A stretch of 40,024 nucleotides of DNA from Candidatus Solincola quzhuomuensis (GTDB lineage Bacteria; Actinomycetota; Geothermincolia; Geothermincolales; RBG-13-55-18). Position numbers and translations under genes: made by a program. Each line of letters opens with the position of its first letter. Position 1 is the stretch's first letter. The notes beneath the pieces are model-generated. The model made no database searches and was not told the origin of the DNA. It was given only the letters and a program-made list of their open reading frames with translations. Location: positions 1 to 40,024 of the forward strand of contig JACVJF010000015.1 in NCBI GenBank assembly GCA_015711855.1. Reading direction: 5' to 3'. Positions 11,909 through 16,881 of this stretch are shown in pieces.

Positions 11909-12655
11909 ATGGAAATAAGCTCCATAGCTTTTTTCGACCTTGACCACACGCTTCTGGACGGAGCCAACGGGAACCTCGTGGTCATGTACATGGTGAAGAA
12001 AGGCCTTTTGGGCTGGGAAGCGATCTGGAAGGCCTTGAAGTTCACCTTCCTCTACCGCCTGAATAAACTCCCCCGGGAAGAGGTATACCGATGGACCTTT
12101 CAGGAATGCGGCAAGTATCCCATCGACGAGCTCATCCGCATGCTGGACGAGGCCTACGAGTCCTGCATAATGCCCAGGCTGTTCCGGGAGGGGGCGGAAT
12201 GTATCGCCGCGCACAGAGCCCGAGGCCACCTCACGGTCATCGCCACCGCCGCCGGCGAGTATATATCCGAAAAGGTGCGGGTACAACTGGGCGCGGACGA
12301 CAAGATAGCCGCGGTGGCCCCGGTGCGTGACGGCTACCTGACCGACGAATTGGAGCGGCCCCTGCCTTATGGGGAGGGCAAGGAGGAATTGGCCCGAGCG
12401 TACGCCGCGGCGCGGGGGTTGGACCTGTCCGCATGCTATTTCTACTCCGACAGCCTGGCCGACCTGCCCCTCCTGGAGGCCGTGGGGCATCCGGTGGCGG
12501 TAAACCCGCAGAGGCGATTGCGCCGGCTGGCGGTAAAGCGAGGGTGGCCGGTGCTCCGCTGGAACACCCCGGCGGGGTTCACACAGCCCAGTCGCGCCGT
12601 GAGATTGACCTTCGACCCCTCTGAGAGACCCGCGCCCGCGGAGGAGAGCGGATAA
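11909..12655 (+). CDS. HAD-superfamily phosphatase, subclass IB (SerB-like)
   Basis: This 248-aa protein begins with the HAD nucleophile motif FFDLDHTLLDG (Asp10, Asp12). It continues through a helical cap, motif II 'VIATAAGEY' and motif III/IV 'YGEGKEEL' and 'YFYSDSLADLPLLEAVG', as in HAD-IB phosphatases such as phosphoserine phosphatase-like and lysolipid-linked enzymes. The substrate is probably a small phosphomonoester. The only plausible start is ATG 11909; an in-frame stop lies 12 nt upstream. No Shine-Dalgarno site is seen, and TATAAA sits immediately before the ATG. The mRNA may be leaderless or the gene may depend on read-through from the alcohol dehydrogenase 55 nt upstream. The dynamin gene downstream has its own promoter. 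Confidence 0.85.
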   Translation: MEISSIAFFDLDHTLLDGANGNLVVMYMVKKGLLGWEAIWKALKFTFLYRLNKLPREEVYRWTFQECGKYPIDELIRMLDEAYESCIMPRLFREGAECIAAHRARGHLTVIATAAGEYISEKVRVQLGADDKIAAVAPVRDGYLTDELERPLPYGEGKEELARAYAAARGLDLSACYFYSDSLADLPLLEAVGHPVAVNPQRRLRRLAVKRGWPVLRWNTPAGFTQPSRAVRLTFDPSERPAPAEESG

Positions 12656-12723: not shown

Positions 12724-12751
12724 TTGACGCCCTACATCGCCGGGATATAAT
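12724..12751 (+). promoter_or_regulatory. Sigma-70-type promoter of the fluoride riboswitch RNA
   Basis: TTGACG (12724-12729) and a perfect TATAAT (12746-12751) are separated by 16 nt. Transcription should start near 12758, about 30 nt before the aptamer. This is one of the best promoter matches in the window, and it belongs to the riboswitch-GTPase unit alone. Confidence 0.8.
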
Positions 12752-12784
12752 CGAAAAGGATGCTGCCTACGGGCGGCTCTAGAC

Positions 12785-12861
12785 AAAGGCGATGAGGCTC
12801 GCCGTTTGCCCGTTGAACAGGGCTGATAGCTTCTACCAGCGAGGTAGGAGCTTTTCTTATT
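12785..12861 (+). ncRNA. Fluoride (crcB-type) riboswitch with overlapping intrinsic terminator
   Basis: The region matches the fluoride aptamer in order. Stem 1 is GGCG (12788-12791)/CGCC (12800-12803) with loop ATGAGGCT. A short linker GTTT follows. Stem 2 is GCCC (12808-12811)/GGGC (12820-12823). Then comes the conserved TGAT (12824-12827) and AGCTTCTACC (12828-12837). AGCTT can pair with AGGCT in the first loop, giving the known pseudoknot. The same AGCTTCTACC also pairs with GGTAGGAGCT (12843-12852) to make a 10-bp hairpin followed by TTTTCTTATT, an intrinsic terminator. Fluoride binding would hold the pseudoknot, block the terminator and switch the gene on, as in known crcB switches. One deviation: the linker is GTTT where AAAC is common. 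The regulated gene starts at 12878. Confidence 0.85.
12828..12861 (+). terminator. Regulated intrinsic terminator of the fluoride riboswitch
   Basis: The stem is AGCTTCTACC (12828-12837)/GGTAGGAGCT (12843-12852), with one G-U pair and a 5-nt loop, followed by a T-rich tract. The 5' arm doubles as the 3' strand of the aptamer pseudoknot, so the two folds exclude each other. Confidence 0.82.
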
Positions 12862-12877
12862 AGGCAGGTGGGAAGGT

Positions 12878-14659
12878 ATGAGTTCCTACAAAGAGATCCG
12901 TGACTCCATCACCGACATTATCCGTGACCTGGAATCGAGCGACGGATACCCCATTTCACGGTCGATCATGGAGGGCCTGGGGGAGGTAAAACGGAAGCTG
13001 GAGACGGAGAATTTCCATGTGGTGGTCATGGGTCAATTCAAGCGGGGTAAGACGACCTTCATCAATGCCCTTCTGGGAGAGGAAATCCTGCCCAGTTCGG
13101 TGGTTCCCCTTACCTCCATCAACACCGTTCTGCGCTATGGGGAGAAAGTGGAAGCCGTCGTCCATTTTCTGGACGGAAACACGAGGGAAATAGGGGTGGC
13201 CGCCTTACCGGATTTCGTGACGGAGAAAGGAAACCCGGAGAACCACCTGAAGGTAAGGTACGTGGAGGTCTTCCACCCCTCCACGTTCTTGAGAGACGGG
13301 GTATGCCTGGTGGACACTCCGGGTACCGGTTCAACCTATCTCCACAATGACGAGATGGCTTATTCCTTCCTGGAACACGCGGATGCGGTCATCTTCATGC
13401 TCTCCGCCGATCCGCCGGTGAGCCGATCGGAACTGGATTTTCTACACCGCATCCGTACCAATGTACGCAAGGTCTTCTTCGTCCAGAACAAGGTCGATTA
13501 CTTGGGAAGCGAGGACCTGGAGGAATCCCTGGCCTTCAACCACAAGGTCATCTCGGATGCCGTGGATCTTCGGGACGTGGTCATTCACCCCCTCTCGGCT
13601 AAGGCCGCTCTCGAGGCGGCGTTGGTGGGGGATGAACTTCGTCTCAAGAGTAGCGGGCTTCCGGAATTCATGGCCGTGCTGGAGCAATTCCTTATGAAGG
13701 AAAAAGGAAAGCTGCTGTTGGAGTCCTGCGCCAGAAAGCTGCGGAGGCTGGTGGAGGAAGAATTTGCCTCTCTGCAGTTGGAGACTGCGCTTCTCGATCA
13801 ACCCTTGGAGGAATTGGAGAGGAAGGTGAGCTCCTTCCGCGAGCAGATGGAATACATACGTAGGGAGCGGGAAGAAGTACGCATGCTCATTCGTGGAGAT
13901 CATGAGCGCCTGGTGAGGGACTTGCTGGACGATGAGGTAGGGCGCTTCAAAAGGGAGCAAACGGGGCCCTTGCTGGGACGCTTCGAGGACTTCTTGGAGG
14001 AGAATGCCACGTTGTCGGCATTTGCTTTGGATGAGGCCTTGTCCGATTTCATACGTACGCAGATAATGGAGACCTTCATCTTATGGAGGCACGTGCAGGA
14101 GGAACGCTTGTCCGAGGCCTTCCGTTCCATGGCCGGTCGGTATATGGAGAAGGCCAATGCCGTAGCCAACCGTATCCTAGAGATAGCCGGGGAACACTTC
14201 GGCCTGACCCTCCCCCGCCTGGAGACGGAAATCGTACTTAGCGACGAGGGGGAGTTCTGGTTCAAGATGGAGGATCCCTTGACGGACCTGGAAGTGGTCA
14301 TGGGGGCGATAACCAAGATGCTGCCCAAAGGCCTCTCCCGACGCCTGATAAGGAAGAAGCGGAGGGAGGAATTGCTGACCCTTTTCGATCGCCATTGCGG
14401 CAGGGTACGCTACGATTTCTTCCTCCGTCTACAGAAGAGCGTGGATGTTCTCTCTTTCCGGGTTGACGAGGTGATCGAGGGAACTCTGCAGGCCATCGAA
14501 GGGGGGATAGAGAAGGCGCTGAGCGAGATCAAGGAAGGCGCGGAGGCGCGCCGAATGGCACGGGATAAACTGGCGAGAAGGCAAATGTGTCTGACGGAGG
14601 CAAGGGAAAAACTGGAAACGGTGATGGGACATATCACAGCCGGTCAAAGCGCGTCCTGA
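12878..14659 (+). CDS. Dynamin-family GTPase under fluoride riboswitch control
   Basis: This 593-aa large GTPase has the P-loop GQFKRGKT (residues 52-59), a G2 Thr in 'PLTS' (about 79), G3 DTPG (146-149) and G4 NKVD (204-207). The GQFKxGK form is typical of bacterial dynamin-like proteins. Residues 300-420 and the C-terminal third are long charged helices, as expected for stalk and bundle domains. No clear transmembrane segment is seen, though a basic amphipathic stretch near 475-500 could touch membranes. The family remodels or protects membranes. It is preceded by a fluoride riboswitch and stands alone: no exporter (crcB/Fluc or EriC) lies in the window. GTPases and phosphoryl-transfer enzymes are sensitive to fluoro-metal complexes, so control may reflect a fluoride-sensitive target or membrane stress; that is inference. 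GGGAAGG lies just before ATG 12878. Confidence 0.9.
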   Translation: MSSYKEIRDSITDIIRDLESSDGYPISRSIMEGLGEVKRKLETENFHVVVMGQFKRGKTTFINALLGEEILPSSVVPLTSINTVLRYGEKVEAVVHFLDGNTREIGVAALPDFVTEKGNPENHLKVRYVEVFHPSTFLRDGVCLVDTPGTGSTYLHNDEMAYSFLEHADAVIFMLSADPPVSRSELDFLHRIRTNVRKVFFVQNKVDYLGSEDLEESLAFNHKVISDAVDLRDVVIHPLSAKAALEAALVGDELRLKSSGLPEFMAVLEQFLMKEKGKLLLESCARKLRRLVEEEFASLQLETALLDQPLEELERKVSSFREQMEYIRREREEVRMLIRGDHERLVRDLLDDEVGRFKREQTGPLLGRFEDFLEENATLSAFALDEALSDFIRTQIMETFILWRHVQEERLSEAFRSMAGRYMEKANAVANRILEIAGEHFGLTLPRLETEIVLSDEGEFWFKMEDPLTDLEVVMGAITKMLPKGLSRRLIRKKRREELLTLFDRHCGRVRYDFFLRLQKSVDVLSFRVDEVIEGTLQAIEGGIEKALSEIKEGAEARRMARDKLARRQMCLTEAREKLETVMGHITAGQSAS

Positions 14660-15151
14660 TTTCCAACGTCCGGTTGACCCCACGATCGCGCGGCCTACTT
14701 CCGGCCCGAAACGGGCGAAACTTTTAAGTTTAGAATAACCGCTATCCAAACGATCCCGATCCGGCAATGACAGGTTTGCGCGAAAACTTATTCCCTATCG
14801 CAAAGATATTTTCAGAAATCGACCTATCGCCGTAGTTTTCAGGATCATTAAAGCCCCGAGCTACCGAATCGGTTGAGACGCTTATTGGGAAGGAACGAAG
14901 CGGGACGGAGATTTTAAGGATCATTAAAGCCCCGAGCTACCGAATCGGTTGTAACTACTTTGGAAGACGAGAGAGGTTACACGACGCTTGAGGAAACCGA
15001 CTTACCCGGAAGCCGTCATGACAGGACTTCCCGCGCGTTAAGAAGAAGCCGGGTTGTACGGCAAAGGATAAAGGCTTAAACTTCGATTGTACGCCGCGAA
15101 ACGTGAAAGCGCGCCCGGGGAGGGGCATGAGGTATTCTGGAGGTGGAAACC
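14660..15151. other. Non-coding stretch with direct repeats
   Basis: About 490 nt with no supported gene. It holds a weak hairpin (GCCCG/CGGGC at 14704-14716) that may end the dynamin transcript. It also holds two identical 35-nt repeats (14841-14875 and 14917-14951), a shorter degenerate echo (CCTATCGC...TTTTCAG) near 14794 and 14823, and a weak possible promoter (TTGTAC 15054, TAAACT 15077). Base composition is more AT-rich than in the flanking genes. Confidence 0.6.
14841..14951. repeat. Two perfect 35-nt direct repeats, 41 nt apart
   Basis: The unit begins AGGATCATTAAAGCCCC and ends CTACCGAATCGGTTG; copies at 14841-14875 and 14917-14951 are identical. Each contains a short inverted repeat ACCGA-A-TCGGT. 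A 35-nt repeat with a 41-nt intervening sequence has CRISPR-like dimensions, but two copies, no cas gene and a weak palindrome make this uncertain. It may instead be a repeated regulatory or extragenic element. Confidence 0.75.
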
Positions 15152-15333: not shown

Positions 15334-16881
15334 ATGGCCGAACAATACGACGTCATCGTGGTGGGTGCCGGTGTTAGCGGGCTCACGGCCGCTTGTCTCC
15401 TCTCCAAGCAAGGCCTGCGCGTGGCGGTTACGGAGCGCTTGGATAGGTTGGGGGGTTGCTGCTCCAACTACGACGTGAAAGGTTTCCGCCCCGAGGTGGG
15501 GGCCATTTTCGTCATAGGTCACGAGTTCTACTACAAGCTCTTCGAACTGCTCGACCTCCGCCTGGAGGACTACTTGGATTGGAAGGTCATCGACCCCGTC
15601 TATTACGTGTACTTCGAGGACGGTAGTTCCTATCCCCTTCCCAGGGATATCGACGCCATGGCCGAGGTAGTGAGGAGCATATCTCCGACAGACGTGGATG
15701 GTTATTACCGATACTGTCGGGACATGAACAAGCTGTTCGGCGCTTACCTGGCGTTTCTCCGCCGCCCCCTTCCCGCCCTTCAAAGATTGACCAAGATATC
15801 CAACCTGGTGCGCCTGGCCGCCAATCGGGAGCTGGTATACGCCTTACCGGTGAACCTCAAACTCCTCTTCCGGAACATGGACCGCTGCGTGCGCGGTTAC
15901 TTCCGTCACCCGCGTATTCAACTCATGTTCGGTTGGGAGAACCTCTATGCCGGTCTCCCCGCTCACCGCTGTACGGGGCTTTTCACCATGATGGCCCACA
16001 TGGGGCGCATGGGCTACTACTATCCAAAGGGGGGCATGATAGCCATACCCACGGCGCTGGCCCGCATCGCCCGAGGATTCGGGGCCGACATACGCTTGGG
16101 GGCCGAGGTGAAGAGCCTGATATTGAGGGGAGGGGAAGCTTGCGGAGTGAGGCTTACCGACGGCACCGTTCTAACCTCTCGCGCGGTGATATCCACCGCC
16201 CATTCCAGGGTCACCTACCTCAAGCTGGTGGGAGAGGACAACCTGCCCTCCTGGGCGGTGCGTACCATCCGCAGACAGCCCTGCTCCATCCCCGCCCCCC
16301 TCATACACATGGGACTCTCCAGGAAACTGGAAGGCATCCGAGCCCACATGTCGCTGGTGGCCAACCCTCGGGAACAGGTGGACAACATCTGGGGAGACTA
16401 TTACGACCGGGGACTTCTTTACCGTCCAGCGGACGGTGCCTATCTTTTGGTGTCCCCCACCTTCGACGACCCGGATCTGGCCCCGGAAGGAAAGGACGTA
16501 CTCTCCGTCTTTTACATCGCCCCTTACCGGCTGCGCTATCATGACTGGGACGACGTTGCCGAGGAGTGGTCCTGGGAGGTGATAGATTACCTGGACAAGA
16601 GATGCCTTCCCGGGCTGGCCGGGATGGTTGAGTGGATGGACCCAGTGCCTCCCAAGGAGCTCGAGCGACGTCTCAACGTGGCCGAGGGAGCTTTCTTCGG
16701 CATAGAGATGAGCCTTACCAACCTGGGACCCTTCCGTCCCAACTACCGGTCGCGTCTGATAAGACGCCTCTATCAGGCGGGACAATGCACCAACCCCGGA
16801 TTGGGGGTACCGGGGGCCATGATTTCCGGAATTGCCAACGCCTCCCTGGTCGTCCGGGATTGGAAGGCACTTTCGACTTGA
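15334..16881 (+). CDS. FAD-dependent oxidoreductase, phytoene desaturase (CrtI)-like
   Basis: This 515-aa flavoprotein opens with the dinucleotide-binding motif 'VIVVGAGVSGLTAACLL', followed by 'RLGGCCSNYDVKGFRPEVGA'. It ends with the CrtI-family C-terminal FAD motif 'YQAGQCTNPGLGVPGAMISG'. CrtI-like proteins include carotenoid desaturases, isomerases and many uncharacterised amine or retinol-type oxidoreductases. No phytoene synthase or other carotenoid gene is nearby, so the substrate is open. ATG 15334 is preceded by GAGGGGGTGGGG; an in-frame opening back to 15103 overlaps the small membrane protein gene and is rejected. A central loop region near residues 180-200 is basic and hydrophobic and may touch the membrane. 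Confidence 0.85.
   Translation: MAEQYDVIVVGAGVSGLTAACLLSKQGLRVAVTERLDRLGGCCSNYDVKGFRPEVGAIFVIGHEFYYKLFELLDLRLEDYLDWKVIDPVYYVYFEDGSSYPLPRDIDAMAEVVRSISPTDVDGYYRYCRDMNKLFGAYLAFLRRPLPALQRLTKISNLVRLAANRELVYALPVNLKLLFRNMDRCVRGYFRHPRIQLMFGWENLYAGLPAHRCTGLFTMMAHMGRMGYYYPKGGMIAIPTALARIARGFGADIRLGAEVKSLILRGGEACGVRLTDGTVLTSRAVISTAHSRVTYLKLVGEDNLPSWAVRTIRRQPCSIPAPLIHMGLSRKLEGIRAHMSLVANPREQVDNIWGDYYDRGLLYRPADGAYLLVSPTFDDPDLAPEGKDVLSVFYIAPYRLRYHDWDDVAEEWSWEVIDYLDKRCLPGLAGMVEWMDPVPPKELERRLNVAEGAFFGIEMSLTNLGPFRPNYRSRLIRRLYQAGQCTNPGLGVPGAMISGIANASLVVRDWKALST

Follow-up and report, generated by a model that had tools for sequence, protein, structure and literature searches.

A fluoride-type riboswitch in front of a clade of actinobacterial dynamin-like GTPase genes

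Fluoride riboswitches (crcB motif, RF01734) are found in the 5' UTR of the genes that they control and share the 3' strand of their aptamer with a terminator, and an ON logic has been described for them (PMC2864571). Among the genes described under their control are crcB/Fluc, eriC/CLC-F, enolase, pyrophosphatase, Na+/H+ antiporter, mutS, formate hydrogen lyase and HAD-type genes (PMC2864571, PMC11139923, PMC7266159). Among the bacterial dynamin-like proteins (DLPs), BDLP of Nostoc (2j68/2j69/2w6d) is built from a GTPase, a neck and a trunk. Another example is the mycobacterial IniA (6j72/6j73), an actinobacterial stress-induced DLP with a lipid loop at its trunk tip, which is induced by cell-wall drugs, carries out GTP-dependent membrane fission and has been proposed to maintain membrane integrity under these drugs (PMC6715688). 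In Bacillus subtilis, the two-headed fusion DynA acts in membrane surveillance, answering membrane damage and gathering at the damaged membrane (PMC8844932). No fluoride riboswitch has been described for IniA, and no riboswitch for DynA. The locus reported here has the aptamer architecture, leader position and shared terminator strand of the fluoride riboswitch, but its target is a DLP gene and its aptamer scores slightly under the curated cut-off. Both the riboswitch class and the protein fold are known; the new element is their pairing, which was not found in the searched literature on the fluoride riboswitch, crcB and fluoride resistance, in agreement with a first-pass annotation of this DNA that held dynamins not to be a described target (the supplementary gene table of Baker et al., 2012, was outside the scope of that search, and an earlier listing there is possible). 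A fluoride riboswitch is a genetic label, marking a gene that matters when fluoride is high. A switch-bearing clade provides a bacterial DLP family, for which few roles in the cell are established, with a defined inducer and a testable phenotype in a reporter-ready system, and points to membrane maintenance in fluoride resistance, beyond export and enzyme compensation.

The window, a stretch of 40,024 nucleotides from Candidatus Solincola quzhuomuensis (Actinomycetota, class Geothermincolia; assembly of 2.69 Mb in 187 contigs), contains a promoter, a fluoride-type aptamer, an overlapping terminator and the DLP gene in series (Table 1), and this arrangement is conserved across the whole clade of the DLP. 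The promoter, described as near-consensus in the first-pass annotation and found to be so, is the only one between 12600 and 13000, where 0.3 would be expected from shuffled sequences; some orthologous leaders are also preceded by visible promoter-like sequences. The DLP gene seems to stand alone in the window, the next large open reading frame on the + strand being an amine oxidase that starts at 15103. The switch is immediately preceded by a HAD-family hydrolase gene (11909-12655), which has the same orientation but is outside its control; since HAD genes are among the reported targets of fluoride switches, this adjacency may or may not be meaningful.

Table 1. Features of the fluoride-type leader and the DLP gene (positions in the window)
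Feature	Position	Strand	Details
Sigma-70-type promoter, TTGACG-16-TATAAT	12724..12751	+	11/12 consensus positions matched
Fluoride riboswitch aptamer (RF01734)	12779..12842	+	match over all 64 model positions, 31.8 bits
Aptamer stem P1	GGCG 12788-12791 / CGCC 12800-12803	+	loop ATGAGGCT 12792-12799
Aptamer pseudoknot	GAGGCT 12794-12799 with AGCTTC 12828-12833	+	pair census of 29 leaders
Aptamer second stem P2	GCCC 12808-12811 / GGGC 12820-12823 (12808..12823)	+	
Aptamer TGAT segment	12824-12827	+	
Aptamer 3' strand, AGCTTCTACC	12828-12837	+	
Intrinsic terminator, AGCTTCTACC-AGCGA-GGTAGGAGCT with T-rich tail	12828..12861	+	5' arm is the aptamer pseudoknot strand
DLP gene (ATG at 12878)	12878..14659	+	593 aa; Pfam Dynamin_N PF00350, E 5e-28

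Among named records, the nearest to have the gene are two metagenome-assembled genomes, those of Candidatus Solincola tengchongensis (with 78% identity) and of Candidatus Geothermincola primus (with 60%). In a census of 397 genomes of the phylum, centred on the relatives of the source genome, a profile search recovered a DLP at E <= 1e-40 in 45 genomes, and the scores split in two groups, the upper of which (29 genomes at E <= 1e-88) is taken here as the clade. In 28 of these 29 genomes an RF01734 match lies on the coding strand and ends 19-100 nt before the start of the DLP match, and in the remaining member (G150) an aptamer-like sequence, judged by eye and unscored, is found at a contig end. 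At least 27 actinobacterial genomes besides that of the window therefore share the pairing of switch and DLP. This is the opposite of the outcome that the first-pass annotation had named as refuting, namely relatives that never carry the motif. By contrast, no RF01734 match was obtained at E <= 1 in the DNA around the 18 other DLPs found in the phylum (those at E 1e-76 to 1e-41 and one from a separate search), a difference with a Fisher p of 4e-12 in a statistic that takes no account of relatedness. A quickly built tree places the switch-bearing DLPs in one group (95% SH-aLRT) in which 28 of 29 rows have the switch. The lone switch-less member (G085, locus L107, G085:C28) is on a long branch; the open reading frame directly upstream of it resembles, by eye, a membrane subunit of the hydrogenase-4 or NuoL type, and its genome has two fluoride switches, both on a contig other than that of the DLP. 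Several close relatives (G003, G004, G006, G008, and G010) have lost the DLP gene or retain it in decayed form or not at all, so that in some habitats it is dispensable. Two of them were set aside from the census as remnants: G006, in which a weak C-terminal match on G006:C2 is all that is left of the DLP, and G010, in which the 5' half of the aptamer is fused to a C-terminal fragment of the DLP (L074, G010:C78, about 15978-16400) and the crcB gene downstream on the same strand is still intact. The clade was not found on phage or plasmid records, where 1 unannotated phage-labelled and 58 plasmid records contained distant dynamins whose matches all fell short of 80% coverage of the query, and a scan of IMG/VR gave no relative.

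The stems, loop, TGAT segment and 3' strand of the aptamer can be read in the raw sequence with the place and shape given by the first-pass annotation. The covariance-model search that it had proposed gave a divided answer. The score of the window copy is 2.2 bits below the curated (gathering) cut-off of 34 bits, and a scan of the whole window against Rfam at the gathering threshold reported nothing, RF01734 being recovered by a relaxed scan. On the other hand, the match has an E-value of 2e-7 in a local stretch of 201 bases and of 6.5e-7 in the whole genome, where the runner-up reaches 14.8 bits and the window aptamer is the only convincing match. Orthologous leaders of close relatives exceed the cut-off (L013 with 34.8 bits; L014 and L031, the same record twice, with 36.5 bits), which is passed by 17 clade members in all, the highest being G218 with 51.4 bits. 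A score under the threshold is formally one of the outcomes that the first-pass annotation had named as refuting, but here it is outweighed by this E-value and these orthologous leaders. Other weak Rfam matches in the leader (rli30, cow-rumen-1 and sR19; E 0.35-1.8) were rejected as chance. The low score, together with a linker that reads GTTT before the second stem instead of the usual AAC, would also agree with a degenerate or retuned aptamer which has lost fluoride binding or senses another ion, the DLP then belonging to another stress response. This is very improbable, considering that the conserved ATG, TGAT and CTAC segments are all intact, that variation of this linker is frequent across the clade, whose members reach 51.4 bits, and that crcB and antiporter genes in the same genomes use the same motif.

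With regard to the expression platform, the terminator hairpin (12828-12852) has a stem of 10 pairs, an energy of -14.7 kcal/mol (z -4.1) and is followed by TTTCTTATTA. As the first-pass annotation had pointed out, the last segment of the aptamer (12828-12837) is common to this hairpin. Its 5' arm includes the pseudoknot strand, so that the aptamer and terminator folds are mutually exclusive, and this gives an ON layout as described for the crcB motif (PMC2864571). Alternative hairpins are found in most of the 29 leaders: in about 20 the pseudoknot strand folds into a hairpin followed by a T-run, and in five (G037, G218, G286, G150, and G190) the hairpin abuts the start codon or ribosome site and lacks a T-run. 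The type is ambiguous in G382, G233 and G152, and in G009 the terminator arms are present, yet the lowest-energy fold of the stretch differs. A platform that switches between terminator and start-blocking while its logic is unchanged is difficult to account for unless control of the DLP gene by fluoride has been under selection. The platform is predicted to provide ON control. In a hand-parsed alignment of the 29 leaders, all 174 cells of the six pseudoknot pairs contain a standard pair; one of these pairs covaries, with an exchange of A-T to G-C (15 versus 14 sequences), and the neighbouring pair occurs as G-T, A-T and G-C. For P1, 114 of 116 cells are paired, and for the second stem 108 of 116, the latter count being biased towards pairing because its 5' strand was picked to maximise it. 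Chance resemblance, or an aptamer hitch-hiking beside an unrelated gene, would be in keeping with the sub-cut-off score and with nothing further; it is contradicted by the clade-wide conservation, that is, by 28-29 of 29 orthologues from different families of the phylum with the motif 19-100 nt from the gene, and by the covariation and the two kinds of platform, and its probability is close to negligible. Fluoride-responsive control of the DLP gene is, in our opinion, very likely.

The target is a dynamin-family GTPase, as had been proposed from its sequence. Its GTPase motifs are intact (G1 GQFKRGKT at 52, PLTS at 77, G3 DTPG at 146, and G4 NKVD at 204), and the Pfam helical domain PF21808 matches with 23.6 bits, below its cut-off of 28.3. 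In profile comparisons the nearest solved relatives are Nostoc BDLP (E 2e-47), the GTP-binding protein 5owv from a bacterial dynamin pair, and IniA (E 8e-26). An AlphaFold2 model built on 11 homologous sequences (pLDDT 81.7) shows a helical neck and trunk resembling BDLP, and Foldseek ranks BDLP (2j69) first with a TM of 0.74, followed by IniA with about 0.59. The GTPase, neck and trunk layout is common to BDLP and this DLP; however, identity in the fold alignment is about 20% (about 19% for IniA), and the DLP is devoid of a strongly hydrophobic segment. Judged by profile and model, the protein is a bacterial dynamin-like GTPase of the BDLP/IniA kind, and there is good reason to predict that it remodels membranes. 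The tip of the trunk (residues 454-479) is at the position expected for a membrane paddle or lipid loop, but its pLDDT is <50. A search of the protein found no transmembrane-like 19-mer, and the tip has no strong hydrophobicity. Membrane contact is therefore assumed from the homologues.

Putting the leader and the protein together, a rise in cytoplasmic fluoride would lead to an aptamer bound to Mg-fluoride, as in other members of the riboswitch class, which would keep the 3' strand (AGCTTCT) in the pseudoknot, block the terminator arm from forming and let RNA polymerase read into the DLP gene; with fluoride absent, transcription would end near 12861. Going by its fold, the DLP would bind GTP, attach to the inner membrane via the helical trunk tip and oligomerise to tether, fuse or cut membrane, and in genomes that also have Fluc or Na+/H+ antiporters it would work together with them. 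Fluoride control is the well supported, and the best supported, step of this mechanism. Its most likely purpose would be to preserve a tight, energised membrane during fluoride stress, while HF leaks in and any export depends on the proton-motive force. This purpose fits the fold, the precedents of IniA and of DynA, to which the DLP is likened by description, the membrane-protein neighbours, and the way in which fluoride enters as HF and its export leans on the proton-motive force (PMC11139923); we would give it an even chance. The recurrence of the pairing in so many other genomes suggests that membrane work is part of the answer to fluoride poisoning, and the explanation as a whole, a fluoride-switched membrane-remodelling DLP with this purpose, is considered likely.

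The main rival to membrane maintenance is dose compensation, according to which the GTPase would be inhibited by complexes of fluoro-metals (the mimics AlF4-, BeF3- and MgF3-) with GDP and the switch would raise its level to offset the loss, an idea already put forward for enolase and pyrophosphatase. Fluoro-metal complexes mimic the transition state of GTPases, which counts for such an effect, as do the intact G1, G3 and G4 motifs of the DLP. Moreover, it is accepted that fluoride riboswitches control both of these enzymes, enolase and pyrophosphatase (PMC11139923). However, the 18 other DLPs of the phylum have no switch, the targets that were inspected included no housekeeping GTPase, and the clade bears the switch as a whole, a pattern that fits a dedicated stress protein. 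Of the two roles suggested in the first-pass annotation, membrane repair is favoured by the clade specificity and by the membrane-protein genes in the neighbourhood over an offset of GTPase inhibition, which we regard as unlikely.

Regarding exporters, none was seen in the examined part of the window. As a statement on the organism, the claim of the first-pass annotation that no fluoride exporter is present does not hold, since one Fluc/CrcB gene is found on another contig (G000:C50:16043-16381; PF02537, 108.8 bits). It is followed by an open reading frame that by inspection is DUF190-like, and the genome-wide search gave no RF01734 match near it. The claim may be true for eight of the 29 DLP genomes (G001, G012, G016, G094, G108, G138, G150, and G218), in which neither Fluc nor CLC was detected and a relaxed Fluc search again found none, the only match being one of 15.8 bits in G150; these are drafts of 95-99% estimated completeness (84% for G218), so that absence is likely but not certain. 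Such genomes make the switch-DLP a lead on how cells might withstand fluoride when no Fluc or CLC gene can be detected in them. Fluc is found in 13 of the 29 DLP genomes versus 212 of 397 overall, that is, with no enrichment, and a CLC-family gene, of the fluoride type or another, also in 13 of 29. In several lineages the DLP adjoins a transporter gene: crcB follows the DLP in the same orientation in G007, G009 and G005, crcB and DLP carry separate aptamers at a distance of about 0.9 kb in G291 and G357, a Na+/H+ exchanger (PF00999) with its own switch adjoins the DLP in G076, and an antiporter-like open reading frame does so in G094. These neighbours could mean that the DLP serves the exporter specifically, for instance by placing or clustering Fluc or an antiporter, rather than the bilayer as such. 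Against this stand the eight switch-DLP genomes with neither Fluc nor CLC detected, though some of them have an antiporter-like gene (G094), and we hold such a service to be decidedly improbable. Returning to membrane maintenance, a broader proposal, which we put forward tentatively and consider rather doubtful, is that this actinobacterial dynamin clade is a dedicated fluoride-resistance factor, that membrane remodelling is a defence working without a known exporter in some lineages, and that the DLP belongs to a wider switch-controlled set with an uncharacterised cysteine-motif protein and MutS-like ATPases.

Other genes behind fluoride switches were observed in these genomes. A small cysteine-motif protein with no Pfam match (L061:5857-6582, that is, G012:C15:22856-23581; L069:9944-10315 in G016; L072:4290-4841 in G017) comes immediately after the switch-DLP in G016 and G017, and in G012 it has a fluoride switch of its own. 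Within the class it occurs only in these three genomes, all of them with a switch-DLP, and it is a candidate for a second new member of the fluoride regulon; an uncertain relative in G085 is also behind a fluoride switch. Another example is an ATPase of 523 aa with a MutS domain V (L061:3486-5054 on G012:C15; PF00488, E 1.6e-17) behind a fluoride switch, in line with an association of the motif with mutS that was published in 2010 (PMC2864571), and a similar-looking MutS-like protein is found behind a switch in G071. Finally, six fluoride aptamer matches are clustered within 11 kb in G071 (L066, G071:C89:30476-41685) and another six within about 18 kb in G122 (G122:C39:2396-20684), apparently forming fluoride-regulon islands.
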